From the NCBI RefSeq assembly GCF_000283155.1, contig NW_004454160.1, positions 6,399,928 to 6,463,927 of the forward strand: a DNA stretch of 64,000 nucleotides, read 5' to 3'. Position numbers and translations under genes: made by a program. Below are positions 25,059-58,030 of the stretch, in pieces. The DNA comes from Ceratotherium simum simum. Lineage: Eukaryota; Chordata; Mammalia; Perissodactyla; Rhinocerotidae. Under the pieces are notes generated by a model. The model saw only the letters and a program-made list of their open reading frames with translations. It did no database searches and was not told the origin of the DNA. Numbering within the stretch: position 1 is the stretch's first letter; each line of letters starts with the position of its first letter.

Positions 25059-27138
25059 AATTTTTTTTTTTTGAGCGGACTTTTTTAATTCTCCAGACCA
25101 TGATGGAGCTTTAATGGGTGCTTTGCAAAGCTCACGGAAGGCCTTGTCAGGCCTCAGACTCTGAGACAGAGTAATGAAGGAAGAAGGGGAGGAGACTCTG
25201 GGTGATGGAGCTGGCCGCCTCCACCTCCTCCACCTTGGAGATAAAATTAAGTCCCATGCATCTGAAAAACCAAAGCTTCAGCTTCCCCTCTGCCCCTATT
25301 TCTCACCTGCTCAGGCCCGGAGGCCATCTGCCCGGCTCCTGGCTCTGTCTGGCCTGCACCTAGGGCTCCCCTGCTCGAGCCTCAATAGACACAGTGATCC
25401 TCACAGAGCTGCAGCACGACTTGAAGTCCCACTCCTGACTGGCATTGTACATCAGTCCCAGGGAGCCCGAGCCTGCCTACGAGACAGGTGGATGTTCAGC
25501 CAGTGACACTGGCCTCATCACAAGCAAGCACCACAGTGCCCTTGGGGTTGCTGTAGGTGCACCGGTTCCAGGCTGCCCTTTCTTCTGCAGCCAGGTCCCA
25601 GCTGCCCCCTGGCTCCCTGTCTTCCAGCCCCGGGTCCTAGAAGCCCAAGTGGTCCCGGGTGACAGGGCACATCAGCTGCTCCTCCTTCAAGGCAGGCACC
25701 ACTTGGCCCTTCAGGTAGGCAGGGCCCGCACAATAGGTCTGGGTGTTGAAGAGCTGGTCGCAGTATTGGTGCAGCCAGCTGAAGAGGCAGGCCAGGTGGC
25801 AGTCACGCTGCCAGGAGTTACTGTGCAGGGTGAGGTTGAACAGGTTGTAGTTGGTGTTGAAGATGTCCTCCATGAGAGTGGTCAGGGGCTTGCTGGAGAG
25901 ACTGAGCAGCTCAACCTTGGACAGGTTCTGCAAGAGGGCTGGATGCAAAGCTGTCAGGTTGTTGCTGCCCAGGTAGAGCTTGATCAGCTCCTCCAGGTCC
26001 CTGAAGATGCTGGCCAGGAGATGGATGATGGCGTTGGGTGAGACCATAAGGGAACTGAGGCTGGACAGGTTGGCAAAGGCTCCCTCGGTGACAGTCTCCA
26101 GCTAGTTGTGGGACAGGGATAGGCCAACCAGGCCTGGGGTATGGGCAAAGATGTCTGCGGCAGCATCCGCAGTGTATTCCCCTGCAAGTTAGGAAGGTCA
26201 GGTTGCCCAGGGAGGAGAAGACTGAGAGGGGCAGGTGCCCGATGATGTTACACTGCAGCCACAGCTTCTCCAGGCAAAAGAGCTGTGAGAACACTTCTGA
26301 GGGCAGCTCCGAGATGGAGTCGCCATCCAGGAAGAGTTCCTGCAGGCTGCCCAGTTTGCCAAACATACCCTGGGGCAGGCTGGAGAGCGCATGGTTGCTC
26401 AGCCTCAGGGTCTGCAGGCTGCCGAGGGGATTGAACAGCTCCTCAGGCAGCTGGACCAGGAGGTTCTGAGCGAGGTTGAGGGTCTTCAGACATTTCAGAG
26501 GCTGGAAGAGCCTCCCAGGCAGAGTTTCTGGAGCTGGTTGCCCTGCAGCTGGAGGGACTACAGGGCATCCATGTGGTGGAAGAGGTCCTGGGGCAGATCC
26601 TCCAGCATGTTGAAGTTGAGGATGAACTTGCCCAGCAAGGTCAAGTTGGAGAAGATGTTGGTGCTGTGGTTGGAAAAGGCGCTGCCAGTGATCTCCAGGT
26701 CCTTGAGCCTGGGCAGCAGCCAGAAGGCATCTGGCCTGAAGTGGCGGAGTTGGGTGTTGAGGAAGACCACCTTGGTCAGGTTGGAGCTGCTGCTGAAGGC
26801 CATGGCTCCCACTGTGGTGAACGAGATCTCTATGAAGATGATGTCTGTGGCGTGTGGCAGGATGTCCAGCGGGATGGCGGCCAGCTCCTCATGGGAGCAG
26901 CACACCTCCTGGATGAAGCAGTCACACCCCACAGGGCAGGGCTGGGCGAGCCTGGCCACAAGCAGGAGGCAGGCCCAGCATAGCCAGGCTCCAGGCAGCA
27001 TCTCCTAGATCTGAGTGGGAAGAGAAAACAGAAGTGGCGCCTTTCTCAAGGGCAGCGGGCATGGTGACTAGCAGACCAGGTGGAGAGCCAGAAGACAGGG
27101 ATTAGCTCTGTCAGGAGGCCATCAGTTTGCGGCCCCGA
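25059..27138 (-). mobile_element. CPN2 retrocopy insertion unit
   Basis: The unit runs from about 27,138 (5') to a 12-base A-tail at 25,061-25,072 (3'). The poly(A) signal variant ATTAAA lies at 25,084-25,089, 11 bases before the tail. Removing the unit and the adjacent ERE rejoins L1-type wording across the duplication TTTTTAATCTTTC (24,800-24,812) and TTTTTAATTTCTTTC (27,139-27,153). These are the marks of L1-driven retroposition. Confidence 0.85.
25360..27001 (-). pseudogene. CPN2: Carboxypeptidase N subunit 2 pseudogene
   Basis: CPN2 is the leucine-rich-repeat carrier subunit of plasma carboxypeptidase N. The copy begins with an intact ATG at 26,999-27,001, a signal-peptide-like leader, and the LRR N-cap cysteines (QPCPVGCDCF). 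LRR units follow ('NLTKVVFLNTQLRHFRPDAF', 'IFRDLEELIKLYLGSNNL'), then the C-cap (AGPAYLKGQVVPAL). The C-terminal region is readable in pieces to a stop at 25,360-25,362. The length of about 547 codon equivalents matches the usual 545 residues. It is broken by stops at 26,558-26,560 (a likely E to stop), 26,102-26,104 (Q to stop) and 25,637-25,639 (Q to stop), plus several frame changes. No functional protein can be made. There is no intron in the coding part, but the CPN2 coding region is, as I recall, a single exon anyway. Confidence 0.92.
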
Positions 27139-38759: not shown

Positions 38760-39113
38760 NNNNNNNNNNNNNNNNNNNNNNNNNNNNNNNNNNNNNNNNN
38801 NNNNNNNNNNNNNNNNNNNNNNNNNNNNNNNNNNNNNNNNNNNNNNNNNNNNNNNNNNNNNNNNNNNNNNNNNNNNNNNNNNNNNNNNNNNNNNNNNNNN
38901 NNNNNNNNNNNNNNNNNNNNNNNNNNNNNNNNNNNNNNNNNNNNNNNNNNNNNNNNNNNNNNNNNNNNNNNNNNNNNNNNNNNNNNNNNNNNNNNNNNNN
39001 NNNNNNNNNNNNNNNNNNNNNNNNNNNNNNNNNNNNNNNNNNNNNNNNNNNNNNNNNNNNNNNNNNNNNNNNNNNNNNNNNNNNNNNNNNNNNNNNNNNN
39101 NNNNNNNNNNNNN
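38760..39113. other. Assembly gap (354 N) at the TRIM33 start codon
   Basis: 354 undetermined bases sit in the most GC-rich part of the island. By comparison with the family, the initiator ATG and the first roughly 57 codons of TRIM33 fall inside it. Long open frames that cross it are artefacts of unread bases. Confidence 0.99.
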
Positions 39114-39470
39114 GCGGCGCGGCCGGGCCTGACGACGGGGGGGTGGCCGCGGCCTCCTCGGGCTCGGCCCCGGCTGCCTCAGCCGCTGCGGCCTCAGTGG
39201 GCCCTGGAGTTGCCGGGGGGGCGGTATCGACGCCGGCCCCAGCTCCAGCCTCGGCTCCCGCCCCAGGTCCTTCGGCGGGGCCGCCTCCTGGACCGCCAGC
39301 CTCTCTCCTGGACACCTGCGCCGTGTGTCAGCAGAGCCTGCAGAGCCGGCGTGAGGCGGAGCCCAAGCTGCTGCCCTGTCTTCACTCTTTCTGCCTGCGC
39401 TGCTTGCCCGAGCCGGAGCGCCAGCTCAGCGTGCCCATCCCGGGGGGCAGCAACGGCGACATCCAGCAAG
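39114..39470 (+). CDS. TRIM33: TRIM33 exon 1, coding part (5' incomplete)
   Basis: TRIM33 (TIF1-gamma, Ectodermin) is a nuclear TRIM-family E3 ubiquitin ligase and chromatin reader. It limits SMAD4-dependent TGF-beta/BMP signalling and acts in haematopoiesis. The 118 complete codons visible here give an Ala/Pro/Gly-rich N-terminal segment (residues 1-66 of the visible part). The first half of the RING finger follows: CAVC (visible residues 68 and 71) and CLHSFCLRC (88, 90, 93, 96). The remaining RING cysteines are in exon 2, outside the window. The exon ends GACATCCAGCAAG with one base of a split codon and a strong GTGAGC donor at 39,471. The first two visible bases belong to a codon broken by the gap. 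The residues match my memory of human TRIM33 except for a few Ala/Ser/Pro changes in the low-complexity linker. The upstream start is not visible. Confidence 0.95.
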
Positions 39471-41079
39471 GTGAGCGGAAGGCCCTGCCCCAGGTCGGGG
39501 TCGAGGAGGATTTGGGGACGGAGGTGCTTGGGCCCGGGGCTGCTCGGACCAGCGCGATCCTCAGGGGTCTAAGAGGTGAAAGATACGGCTCCTGGGACAG
39601 TTTCCAGAGAAGCCGGACCGCCGGAGATATGGGGAGGGTGAAAGGAGGGGTGCCGGCTGCGAGAGACTGGGGGAGGGGACACCGGCTGCAAGGAAGGTTT
39701 GTGATGTGCGGATCCGGACCGAGAAGGCGTGGACTCCGGCCGAGCGCAGGTTCGGCAGCTGGTGGACCCGGACTGTGAGAGAAGAGGGGGTCTGGGAAAT
39801 CGCTTGTGACAAGCGTTTTGGGAGGGAAGGCCCGGAGCCAGGAGAGGTGTTGAGGAGGGAGTAGGTAACGGATGAGGGCTGTGAGATGAATTGTCCTAGA
39901 GGGAGAGGACTTGACCTGTTAAAGGCTAGGGGAAAGAAGAACTAGGAATTAAATAGAGGAGGATAAAGGGCACTGGAGAGTTTGGGGTTAAGAGAAGGCG
40001 TCTGGTAGAAAGTAGTTTTAAGATGACATTGGGAAGGAGGAACTCTGGAAACGAAAATAGCTATGAGGAGCTTGGATGGTTAGGAAAAAATCCTAAGGTT
40101 TAGGGGTGAAGGAGAAATGAACTTTGAAGGGAATTGGGAGTTAGGGAGACCTGGGCGTGAATTTCAGTTAATTGTACATTGACGAGCTCCTAATGTTCCT
40201 GACACTTTGCTAGGATTCAATAAAATACTCAGTGAGGGGCTCATTCACAGTCTAATGTCGGGCAACAAATATATAATGTACAGCATTGGAGGTGGGTACT
40301 TGGTACAATGGTTGTGGCACAGTCACGAGGAGATCAGGGAAACTTCACTGAAGAGGAAACCCTTGGACAGGTTTCTTAACGGATGAGTGGCTCACTGGGT
40401 TGGAGAGTATTCATGGCACAGGACACCTTACACATCCTTGGAGCTAAGGGATGTGTAAGGTGATTGGTGGAAATTAGATTGGCTTGATGGGCTGAATAGG
40501 TAAGGGGTCTGCAGTCTTTTTTCTGAAACCCTTGGGACCAGGTGTATTTTAGACTTCAGAATAGTTTGGAAAAGTTTCTTTTTCCTGGTAAGGTCTCTCT
40601 CATGCTCCAGCGGGATCTGGGTTGACAACTCATTATCAAACACATTAATATTTCTGCAGTGAAACGTACAAACATCACACAAATGGAATGGACAATAAAT
40701 AGCCTTCTTTCAGGGTGGATTTTGTTGCAAACTTATGAAAAATCTTTAAAATTTCAAAACTTTTGAATTTTGGAACTGCAGGTAAGGGATTGTGGACCTG
40801 TACTAAAGAGTTTGGGATTCATCCTGTACAAGAGTGTACCTTGTACAGTGTAGACTAAAGGGAGTCCCTGAAGGACTTTTATATCAAGAGGGTAAAAGGA
40901 TCACGTTTGTGAGCCAGAAAGATTACGTGGGGCACGTTGAAGGGCAAGGGAAGGCAAGGCTGGAGGCAGGACCAGTTAGGAGAATCTTGGCAGTAATTTA
41001 GGTGAGAAATGAGCCCATTTGGAATGAGTAGTAAAGGACTGATATCAGGTATTAAAGAAGGAAGCATTTTGGTATGGGG

Positions 41080-51568: not shown

Positions 51569-51577
51569 AAATTCTGC
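51569..51577. repeat. MULE target-site duplication, left
   Basis: AAATTCTGC, identical to 54,478-54,486. The 9-bp length is what Mutator transposases produce. Confidence 0.85.
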
Positions 51578-51692
51578 CCCTGCAGGACATTTGGTTCTGT
51601 CCAAAATGTCCATGGAAACATTTGGTCCATGCCAAGAGGTCCTTGAAATTTGGTCCCGTCCAAAATGTCCATGGAGACATTTGGTCTATGAT
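51578..51692 (+). repeat. MULE left terminal inverted repeat
   Basis: About 115 bases hold two modules of about 59 bases. Each has an ATTTGGT box, a TGTCCAAAATGTCCATGG box and a second ACATTTGGTC box. The first module aligns without gaps to the outermost module of the right end; I count about 11 differences in 58 positions by eye. Confidence 0.85.
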
Positions 51693-51779
51693 TCGTTAAG
51701 TAATACAAACATATAACTTCGTTCAAATTTTATATATGTTATTTTTATTGTAATTCATGATGAATTTTGGATTTCACAT

Positions 51780-53251
51780 TTATTCTTGTTCTTCCTCATC
51801 ATGAAGTTCAGCAGGGTTACTCTTAAATCCATGAGCAATTGCGCTCAAATATATATCAACATGTTTGTTAGATCTGTTAACAATTTCGGTTATTTGAATT
51901 TGATTTTGTCTGTATTGTTGTGAAGTTGGTGGCCCTATTTGAGTGTGACCACTAAGAACCTGGCTGATAACTTGTTCATTGCTTTGCTGTTTGTCTTTTA
52001 ACACTTCAGTAAATCTCCAAATTAAAGGATGATGCACCGTCATCAGCTTTTGAAATTTGCCATGCCAGCCTTCCACTGTGTTGTTCATCCTGTGATCACC
52101 ATTCAGTACTGATGTATAAACATTCCAAGATTTTGGTGGAAATCTTGGAACTTCTGGTCTTCTACGTCTGTCGTGCCTTCCACAGATGTACACTCTCTCA
52201 ACGTAATTCATGAGATCATCTAAATTTTCTTCTGCATTCTCCAGAAGGCACTCACAAGTTTCATTTACATCTTACAGAAGCACAAATGGAAGTCCAAACA
52301 ATGTGGATGCACAGTTATAGGTGTTACTTTCCATTGTCATATACTTGCATGTTAGATCCAAAGATGTTTTTTGCCACGATGATTGTGAAAGGTGAAACGA
52401 GCATCCTTTTAACTGTGCATTTGGTAGTTGTCGAATCGCATTCATATTTGCAGTCTTGAAATCTGTCATGCACAATGAAGGGTTAATGTCGAGATTTCTT
52501 TCCTGTGCAGATGCAAGTACTTTCTCATAAGTGTCCTCCCACCTTTTATTGTTAGTACATAAAGCAATGGCATAGTATAACCCAATACTACACCGTGTAC
52601 GGTGAATAACCCAGTGAACTGTGTTGGTCCTGTCATGAAGGTGCCATCACTGAATAATGGGATACTGGCAATTAAATATTGAATATTATCATAAGTTGTG
52701 TAAATAAGAATTCTTTCATCATCTTGAGCACTGGAATTGTGCATAAGAAATGGTTATCTGTGTCTGGTCACTTTATACTCCTCTGGAATTTCAGTTCCAT
52801 GTAGTGAAGTTGGGTTTGAGGGTCGATGTCTGTTTTGAATTCTGTTTACTTGCCTCTTCAATGAGTTTCTCTCTGGTAGCTTTAACAGGACCTCTTCATG
52901 AATATCACAGAGAGTTCTTCGAAGTACCTGCGATTGTGTTGCATCTGGTTCTTATTTTGTGTGTCATTTTAACCTATTCAGGGTTTTCCTTTTCCCTTTC
53001 ACAACATCAAAGTTGTGCTGATGTTTTTCTGTCCCATCTTGAATGATAGTAATGTTATCCAAATCCTGACCAGTTGTACATCGGGCATTGCAGAGTCTCC
53101 TCTCTTCACAGTGCTGGTACCTTTTACTCCTATCTCTGTTAAAGGAATGGAAATGGTAACAAAAACCATTATAATGTAGCGTTGACTTTTCTTTTTGTGA
53201 ATATACTATTTTTGCCTTATTTCGCTGAGAATTTTCAAGTGAAGATGCCAT
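51780..53251 (-). pseudogene. MULE transposase with FLYWCH zinc finger, decayed
   Basis: Reading from ATG at 53,249-53,251, residues 1-95 carry a FLYWCH-type zinc finger: a YNGFCYHFH strand, C residues in YQHCEERRLCNARC and a QHN histidine. These bind DNA in related transposases. The MULE catalytic domain follows. Its three acidic residues are readable: D in SDGTF (52,646-52,648), D in MTDFK (52,461-52,463) and E in NNTVEGWH (52,071-52,073). The GCSFHL motif typical of the family lies between the second and third. The protein ends at TAA 51,780-51,782. Lesions: stops at 52,964-52,966, 52,952-52,954, 52,754-52,756 and 52,272-52,274, plus a one-base frame change near 52,540-52,560. About 490 codons in all. 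The stops are compatible with single C-to-T changes. Confidence 0.88.
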
Positions 53252-53274
53252 ACTGCCAAGCGACAGAAGGATTA

Positions 53275-53990
53275 TTTATTTTTTTTGTTTTGTAGCCGTC
53301 TGACCAATGGTCCCTGGTTTCCTGGTAGGGGAAACCTTACTAATGTCTTATGGATTTGACATCTGGTTTGGCTGGGCTGGCCCAGCCAGTGGGTAGGCAC
53401 CAGCCAAAGGCGTGGTGGTCTACACCAATTGACAGGTAAGTGTGGGAGTCACACCCACTAATACTTCTCCAAATAGTGGCAGACATTTCTTATGGTCTAC
53501 TGTGATCATACTTCTATAGGACATTGATGCAAGGTAAACATCTCCCATTAAGTCTGGGCAATGGGATAGTTGTGAGGGGGTTATTGAGATGCCCGCTGTC
53601 ACCCTCATGGTGGCTATTATCCCTGACTGCTGTGTGGTAGGAGAGCCACATCTGGTTTGTGAGCTGCTCTGTAAAGTTTATGTTAACACATTTGCTGCCC
53701 TTTTTACATAGCGGTTCCACTGAGCTCCTCCTTTCAAGCTCCACCCTTATTGAATGAGCCTGCCACGTCAGCCAAATGCCCAGTGACATATTAAGGCACC
53801 ATGTATCGTGAGATACCATCCTCGACGTATCCTTTGTGCATTTCTCTAACTGTAGGACTCTTCCTCGGTATGCATAGTTGATATAAATCCCACTCTTCTG
53901 CAAGATCTGAACCCCGACCTGTCTCCCTAACCCCATGTGCCATTAGTGGCTAGGCTACTGAGGCAAGAAGAGTTATTATTGGCAATACAG
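53275..53990 (-). other. Unexplained segment inside the MULE
   Basis: Between the transposase start and the right inverted repeat lie about 700 bases with no transposase similarity. On the minus strand a 140-codon open frame (53,514-53,936) resembles nothing I know. The left edge is A-rich on the minus strand (AAAACAAAAAAAATAAAT). The right edge has tRNA-like wording: CAGTAGCCTAGCCACTAATGG at one point and GGGGTTCAGATCTTGC about 40 bases on, similar to pol III A and B boxes. It could be the 5' UTR/promoter region, a captured sequence or an old retroposon. Confidence 0.45.
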
Positions 53991-54107
53991 CCACAACACA
54001 ATTATTGGAGAAGTAAAACATCATAGTATTTTTTTATGTATTAATCCTCTAAACCAAAAGTATAAATAAATGTTATGGGCTGTTTGAACCCAGGGATGTT
54101 TTATATG

Positions 54108-54477
54108 CATGGATGTTTTTGACAGGACCAAATATCAAAGACCATTTGGCATGGACTACATATGCTCATGGAGTGTTTTATTTTTTTTGGTGAGGAAGAT
54201 TGACCCTGAACTAACATCTGTGCAAATCTTTCTCTATTGTTTGTATGTGGGATGCTGCCACAGCACAGCTTGACGAGCGGTATGTAGGTCCGCACCCGTG
54301 CCTGGTAGCCAAACCTGCAAACCCTGGGCCGTGGAAACAGAGCCCGTGAACTTAAATCACTATGCCACTGGGCCGGCCCCTCATGGATGCTTTTGATAGG
54401 ACCAAATATCAAGGCGTTTTTGGTGTGGACCAAATGTCTCCATGGACGTTTTGGACAGGAACAAATATCTGCTAATC
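54108..54477 (-). repeat. MULE right terminal inverted repeat, split by an ERE
   Basis: Without the ERE this end is about 170 bases and holds three modules of the 59-base type, one more than the left end. The ERE cuts the second module. The outermost module begins at 54,477 and the innermost ends near 54,108. Confidence 0.82.
54180..54379 (-). mobile_element. ERE SINE, form 1, inside the MULE terminal repeat
   Basis: On the minus strand it starts GGGGCCGGCCCAGTGGC. The target duplication is CTCATGGAGTGTTTT against CTCATGGATGCTTTT (54,165-54,179 and 54,380-54,394). Those words belong to the MULE end, so the ERE came second. Confidence 0.93.
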
Positions 54478-54486
54478 AAATTCTGC
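54478..54486. repeat. MULE target-site duplication, right
   Basis: AAATTCTGC, identical to the left copy. Confidence 0.85.
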
Positions 54487-57204: not shown

Positions 57205-58030
57205 ATTTTTGACAAGGGTACCACATCCATTCTGTGGGGGAAGGAATAGTTTCTTCAACAAATCATGTTGGGACAACTGGATTTCCATGTGCAAAAGAAT
57301 GAAGTTGGACCACCATATAAAAAAATTAACTCAAAATGGATCAACAATCTAAATATAAAAGCTAAACCCATAAAACTCTTAAAAGAAAACGTAGGGGTAA
57401 ATTTTCATGACTTGGGATTTGACAGTGGATCCTTAGATATGACACCAAAAGCACGAGCAAGAAAAGAAAAAATTGATAAACTGGACTTCATCAAAATTAA
57501 AATTTTTATAATCAAAGAACATTATCAAGAAGGTGAAAAACAACCTACAGAATGGGAGAAAATACTTGTTTAATCATATGTCAGGTAAGAGTGTAGTACC
57601 TAGAATATATAAAGAACGCTTACAACCTAATCATAAAGACAAAGAATCCAATAAAATAATGAGAAAAAGATCTAAATAGACAGTTCTCCAAAGAAGATAT
57701 ACATGTGGCCAATAAGCACATGAAAAGGTGCTCAAGATCATTAGTCAGTAGAGATTTAAATCAAAACCATAAGATACCACTTCACATCTCCTAGAATGGC
57801 TCTAATAAATCAAGAAGTATTGGCAAGGGTGTGGAGAAATTAGAGCCCTTGTACATTGCTGGTGGGAATGTAAAATGGAGCTGTCATTATGGAAAACAGT
57901 TTGGTGGTGATGGTTGGGTGGTTGCACAACATTGTGAATGTAATTAATGCTACAGAATTGGATACGTGAAAATGGTTAAAATGGCAAATTTTATGTTTAT
58001 TTTGCCACAGTAAAAAAAAACTTAAAAAAA
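57205..58030 (+). mobile_element. LINE-1 3' end, sense
   Basis: A 102-codon open frame (57,265-57,573) reads like the C-terminal part of L1 ORF2 (MLGQLDFHVQKNE, KLDFIKIKIFII). Further ORF2-end words follow ('ccaataagcacatgaaaagg', 'ggcaagggtgtggagaaat', 'gctggtgggaatgtaaaatg'), then an L1M 3' UTR ('tgcacaacattgtgaatg', 'tggttaaaatggcaaatttt') and an A-run at about 58,011-58,028. Broken and 5'-truncated. Confidence 0.82.

Follow-up and report, generated by a model that had tools for sequence, protein, structure and literature searches.

A Mutator-like element (MULE) with a FLYWCH alignment was reported from the horse in 2010 by Marquez and Pritham, as recounted in a 2019 paper (PMC6446971). 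That paper found no transposase for the horse MULE, called for the vertebrate MULE entries to be re-evaluated and asked whether MULEs are truly absent from vertebrate genomes. The window studied here, a whole 64-kb stretch of contig NW_004454160.1 of Ceratotherium simum simum, contains at 51569-54486 a dead MULE copy whose closest named relatives found are proteins of Trichuris, the whipworms, which are parasitic worms of mammals. We consider it highly probable that the family entered this mammalian lineage horizontally, likely multiplied in a single burst some tens of millions of years in the past, and then decayed.

Two places in the window, and no others, have the exact 9-bp AAATTCTGC: 51569-51577 and 54478-54486 (plus strand). 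A count of two in 64 kb would not stand out from chance (1.18 expected; two or more in 37 of 100 shuffles), and they are evidence not because of their count but because both abut the element ends as fixed from other copies (5' CCTTGCAGG..., 3' ...CTAATC). Inside these target site duplications lie a left terminal inverted repeat (51578-51690, plus strand) and a right one, with its inner part at 54108-54172 (strand unassigned) and its outer part at 54380-54477 (plus strand). The 88-nt arms are 80% complementary, their outermost 7-8 bases mirroring each other only in part, and are built of subterminal repeat units of about 59 bp, some 1.8 on the left and 2.6 on the right as counted by eye, with a period of 59 in the family majority. 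Terminal inverted repeats, and target duplications within the 8-11 bp expected of a MULE, are thus both present.

Between the arms, a broken FLYWCH-MULE transposase frame runs along the minus strand from 53251 to 51780, interrupted by four stop codons and one frame shift near 52580. Its amino end (52964-53251) carries a FLYWCH zinc finger over the detection cut-off (PF04500, E 6.9e-6), a feature of the Phantom clade of MULEs. The catalytic domain (52272-52651) holds SDGTF (52651-52637) in the upstream frame and MTDFK (52469) and GCSFHL (52406) in the downstream frame, and the C-terminal part (51780-52271) holds the third acidic residue, in NNTVEGWH (52085-52062); the D, D and E motif letters occur in both the window copy and the family majority. 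The MULE domain PF10551, on 52272-52646, falls just under its cut-off of 27.6 bits in the window copy (E 2.5e-5, 25.1 bits); it is above cut-off in 8 other family copies and scores 50.6 bits in a Trichuris suis relative. The predicted fold of a whipworm relative, rather than of the broken window copy, matches ISCth4, Hermes and integrases, which would place the DDE residues in an RNase H fold, as in MULEs, and the enzyme was probably once active. An earlier note, written from the letters of the window, had given the element exactly these coordinates, inverted ends, a minus-strand finger and the four motifs, all of which were located; its assignment to the FLYWCH-MULE class is borne out by the domains, by the duplications and by the best full-length match, a T. 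suis FLYWCH-MULE protein.

Copies of the family are known from this one mammal genome (2.45 Gb, 339 contigs), in which the best 40 of 6807 candidates were scored, making the counts lower bounds. Matches longer than 1 kb have 78-82% identity. At least 26 long copies (L002-L027) were found, and 25 of them have both ends, defined as CCTTGCAGG...CTAATC with at most 8 mismatches in 25, and span 1.5-3.3 kb; L023, without a right end, was left out of the copy counts. Requiring 8 of 9 or 7 of 8 matching bases, we find target duplications of 8 or 9 bp in 17 of the 25, three of them with nine exact bases, while a control that paired left flanks with the right flanks of other copies gave a duplication in 1 of 600. 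Repeats lie on both flanks of L017, L025 and L026. When the flanks of L025 are joined with a single duplication, the junction is matched straight through by repeats in L031 (83%, 214 bp), in L017 and at window 57434-57661, and these are paralogous empty sites. The L026 and L017 sites are likewise spanned by relatives, neither copy having a duplication under the rule.

Shorter elements were seen as well. Searching with the left arm gave 325 first-look candidates, the best 40 of which were scored; in a set of 20 places (L038-L057), 17 have paired ends within 520 bp and three have none. Nine of the 20 show a duplication and spans are 238-414 bp, in a lenient count for which the best end pair was chosen, with no shuffled control. 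These look like end-only derivatives that would have been moved in trans. Some of the short elements (about 240-410 bp, two inverted ends) hold more units than others, judging by overlapping matches, a variation that unequal exchange or slippage inside the ends may have produced.

The 25 copies have decayed as neutral sequence. Their Kimura two-parameter (K2P) distances from the majority are 0.09-0.17 over all sites, mostly 0.10-0.13 (about 11%). With CpG left out, mean divergence from the majority is 0.082 and that among copies is 0.159, twice as much; the copies therefore trace to one star-like burst. In the reading frame, amino-acid-altering and silent sites changed alike (N/S ratio 1.10), and all 25 copies examined are broken, with 2 to 11 stops each; neither measure suggests that any of them has been under selection after inserting or has become a domesticated gene. 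At an assumed rate of 1-2 x 10^-9 changes per site and year, the burst would be about 40-80 million years old. The majority has a frame of 452 codons from its first ATG to a single stop, with all the catalytic blocks in order. A real early end of the frame at codon 452 was considered and rejected as an alignment effect, since the match to the whipworm protein continues past residue 490 in 23 of the 25 single copies. Because the majority frame is open with its catalytic blocks, and the copies match past that residue, a coding element likely drove the burst.

Where, then, are the relatives of this transposase? In a protein search, the read-through of the window copy was best matched by T. suis P0008 (55% over 98% of the query, E 3.6e-172), followed by P0009 and P0010, also of T. 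suis. A profile search gathered 31 proteins, including further ones from T. suis and others from Trichuris trichiura, the thrips Frankliniella fusca, the whitefly Bemisia tabaci, a rotifer and a ctenophore. Identity to the family majority is 70% for P0008 and 69% for P0010, and at most 48% for rows outside Trichuris, the fragments P0001-P0007 aside. In a maximum-likelihood tree built from 27 rows, a clade with 99/100 support unites the mammal family with five Trichuris rows and no other row, and the same clade is recovered (100/100) from 24 rows with the raw window copy in place of any majority; the second tree left out the long branches P0036 and P0037, and P0009, P0030, P0031, P0033, P0034, P0038, P0039 and the fragments P0001-P0007 are in no tree. 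A constraint that groups the named ecdysozoan rows to the exclusion of the mammal family cost 51 and 49 log units and was rejected by the approximately unbiased test (p-AU 6.8e-5, and 3.1e-4 with the raw window copy). The earlier note had spoken of a coding family, possibly acquired by horizontal transfer; the majority frame upholds the former, and the clade with whipworms and the failure of the vertical-descent tree support the latter well.

Seven protein fragments, P0001-P0007, were gathered as well. P0001 has its best match in the host genome at 71-72% over most of its length, no close match, and its being a copy of this genome was rejected on that account; P0002-P0007, compared with the collected family loci only, reach 61-77%. 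At 79 of the 80 positions judged (at least four of the seven overlapping, at least 60% agreeing), the letter of P0001-P0007 is that of the family majority. These fragments probably descend from the same founder and belong to another genome, which the founder would also have reached or which would have inherited it. No relatives were found in viral contigs scanned with a C-terminal piece, nor in bacterial genome contigs scanned with a fragment alignment. One viral contig (L001) has an exact 18-mer of the inverted repeat, which we dismiss as chance: within the 14 kb compared the element matches 19 bases only, and the whipworm protein matches nothing at E <0.3.

Some of the proteins collected are curious in their own right. 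P0014 of T. suis and P0021 of T. trichiura represent a common FLYWCH-MULE protein with altered catalytic blocks (CDSML/CDGMS), the last glutamate of P0021 being replaced by lysine, and may possibly be a domesticated transposase gene. The gene model of P0009 has an unrelated, gag-like-looking stretch ahead of its MULE transposase, either a fusion or a mis-joined model. P0023 of F. fusca is FLYWCH-MULE-like and is publicly named 'Alanine--tRNA ligase', apparently wrongly.

How the family came to be shared by a mammal and whipworms allows several readings. A third, unsampled source, such as an arthropod, another gut parasite or a virus, may have supplied both as co-recipients, itself a variant of horizontal transfer and one that we regard as possible but clearly the less probable. 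Further relatives do exist, arthropods (thrips, whitefly) among them, and the tests favour neither a place inside Trichuris nor one beside it; yet proteins outside Trichuris stay at or below 48% to the majority against 70% for T. suis, P0001-P0007 aside, and the distant clade member shared by T. suis (P0014) and T. trichiura (P0021) suggests long residence in whipworms. Ricksha is described in the earlier note as ancient and non-autonomous, and copies only about 11% from their majority are young for a family of eutherian-wide age, making it very unlikely that the element is a copy or the coding parent of Ricksha. What speaks for that idea is that Ricksha supplies the only MuDR-type entries in a human list (PMC5753468). 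Inheritance from a bilaterian ancestor, with loss from nearly all other vertebrates, would agree with the wide distribution of MULEs in eukaryotes (PMC6446971), but we find it highly improbable given the rejection of the tree that keeps named ecdysozoans together (p-AU 6.8e-5), the star-like burst from a single founder, and the lack of a second MULE lineage among the genome matches scored. That worm DNA contaminates the mammal assembly, or mammal DNA the worm assembly, is scarcely credible here, although a shrew assembly did have reads consistent with Trichuris or Trichinella contamination (PMC6542046): the mammal copies are broken, are embedded in host contigs 1.9 to 78 megabases long, bear target duplications and in some cases sit inside host repeats, and the worm P0008, P0009, P0010 and P0015 are open frames on contigs of 112 to 407 kb.

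Horizontal entry followed by a single burst thus remains our preferred reading, and a number of points tell against it. Placing the family inside Trichuris (p-AU 0.378) or as its sister (p-AU 0.307) is rejected in neither case, and we therefore only infer the direction, probably from a worm or worm-like donor to the mammal. The named tree rows come only from T. suis, T. trichiura, thrips, whitefly, a rotifer and a ctenophore, so the donor may be unsampled. The whipworm kinship is one of proteins, and 8 of the 25 copies have no duplication under the rule. It is tempting to go further and propose that a whipworm-like gut nematode passed the element directly to an ancestral odd-toed ungulate, with a single burst near the split of the modern perissodactyl families; this would be the first mammalian coding MULE family documented by its catalytic domain, by marks of insertion and by a burst that can be dated, and MULEs would not be excluded from vertebrates. 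We hold the case for and against this fuller account to be evenly balanced.

A model for mobility can be proposed from an insect MULE that has been tested, together with the motifs and the fold predicted for the whipworm relative. In it, the units of about 59 bp repeated in the element ends would serve as binding sites for the FLYWCH finger, and the D-D-E nuclease, with its RNase H fold, would excise the element. Insertion at staggered target cuts would then leave a duplication of 8 or 9 bp. The same transposase could move the short two-end elements in trans.

The remaining features of the locus are as follows. The stretch of about 0.8 kb at 53280-54100 (strand unassigned) belongs to the element as its 5' region because it is common to the long copies; matches reach query 2604, or window 54172, and the family majority has no frame there longer than 78 codons. 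A younger short interspersed nuclear element (SINE) at 54173-54379, on the minus strand, splits the right arm and has its own 8-bp duplication CTCATGGA, the left copy of which is 54165-54172. Matches to the SINE only (query 2601-2826) were met at no fewer than 13 places in the genome scan, at 80-83%, and we take it to be of the equine ERE type, a perissodactyl type. Exon 2 of two beta-globin genes scores best against the PDB chains 1g0b, 1s0h, 2dhb and 6r2o, haemoglobins of horse and donkey, at 157 bits with 142.6 for the runner-up, although 5 of 75 and 6 of 76 residues differ. The alpha-globin exon ranks the horse and donkey chains (137.8 and 137.7 bits) below tandem-alpha chains of human type and two single chains, 3fh9 (142.1 bits) and 4yu3 (138.3), a result that speaks neither for nor against a perissodactyl. 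Leaning mainly on beta-globin, we read the host as likely a perissodactyl other than Equus, a rhinoceros or tapir, so that the perissodactyl host of the earlier note is well supported. The RING letters mark exon 1 of TRIM33 around 39200-39500 of the plus strand, and the element is therefore in intron 1 and antisense, the location that had been proposed for it. A run of 354 Ns at 38760-39113, perhaps a gap, lies in the CpG-rich stretch of this exon. On the minus strand at 25640-27004 are pieces of a leucine-rich-repeat protein in broken frames that resemble carboxypeptidase N subunit 2 and may be the relic of a gene next to TRIM33, or a duplicate.

In a broader context, the transposase, the duplications and the copy set answer the doubt raised over vertebrate MULEs (PMC6446971). 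The family is tied to a parasite of mammals, and offers a datable and checkable case of host-parasite transfer of a DNA transposon; its insertions could also serve as markers for perissodactyl phylogeny. A literature search, with most subscription papers outside its scope, found no mammalian MULE transposase beyond the account in PMC6446971 and no MULE common to whipworms and mammals. What is new is a documented mammalian MULE family with whipworm kinship, a MULE report in horse being already known. The suggestion that the family was undescribed accordingly holds in part: a horse FLYWCH MULE had been reported in 2010, for which no transposase was found later (PMC6446971).

Among known systems, the horse element of the Phantom report is similar as a perissodactyl MULE that has a FLYWCH finger (PMC6446971). 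The present family differs in having catalytic blocks, copies and duplications and a host that is likely outside Equus; compared by description only, the two are possibly the same. T. suis P0008, P0010 and P0015 share the D, D, GCxFH and E blocks, and P0008 the FLYWCH finger, at 53-55% to the window copy and 66-70% to the family majority. They are open frames in a nematode, known from proteins alone, whereas the 25 mammal copies are broken. Also by description, Muta1 of Aedes aegypti is similar in being an active MULE whose duplications are 8 or 9 bp long and which needs its DDE residues (PMC5225508), and Ricksha in belonging to the MuDR class in a mammal (PMC5753468). Transfers between nematodes and vertebrates have other examples in AviRTE and, possibly, in the bandit DNA transposon of hookworm and human (PMC6542046). 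RTE1_Sar, common to the shrew and parasitic nematodes, is similar in joining a mammal and parasitic worms through a mobile element, but it is a retrotransposon and involves other worms and another mammal (PMC6542046).
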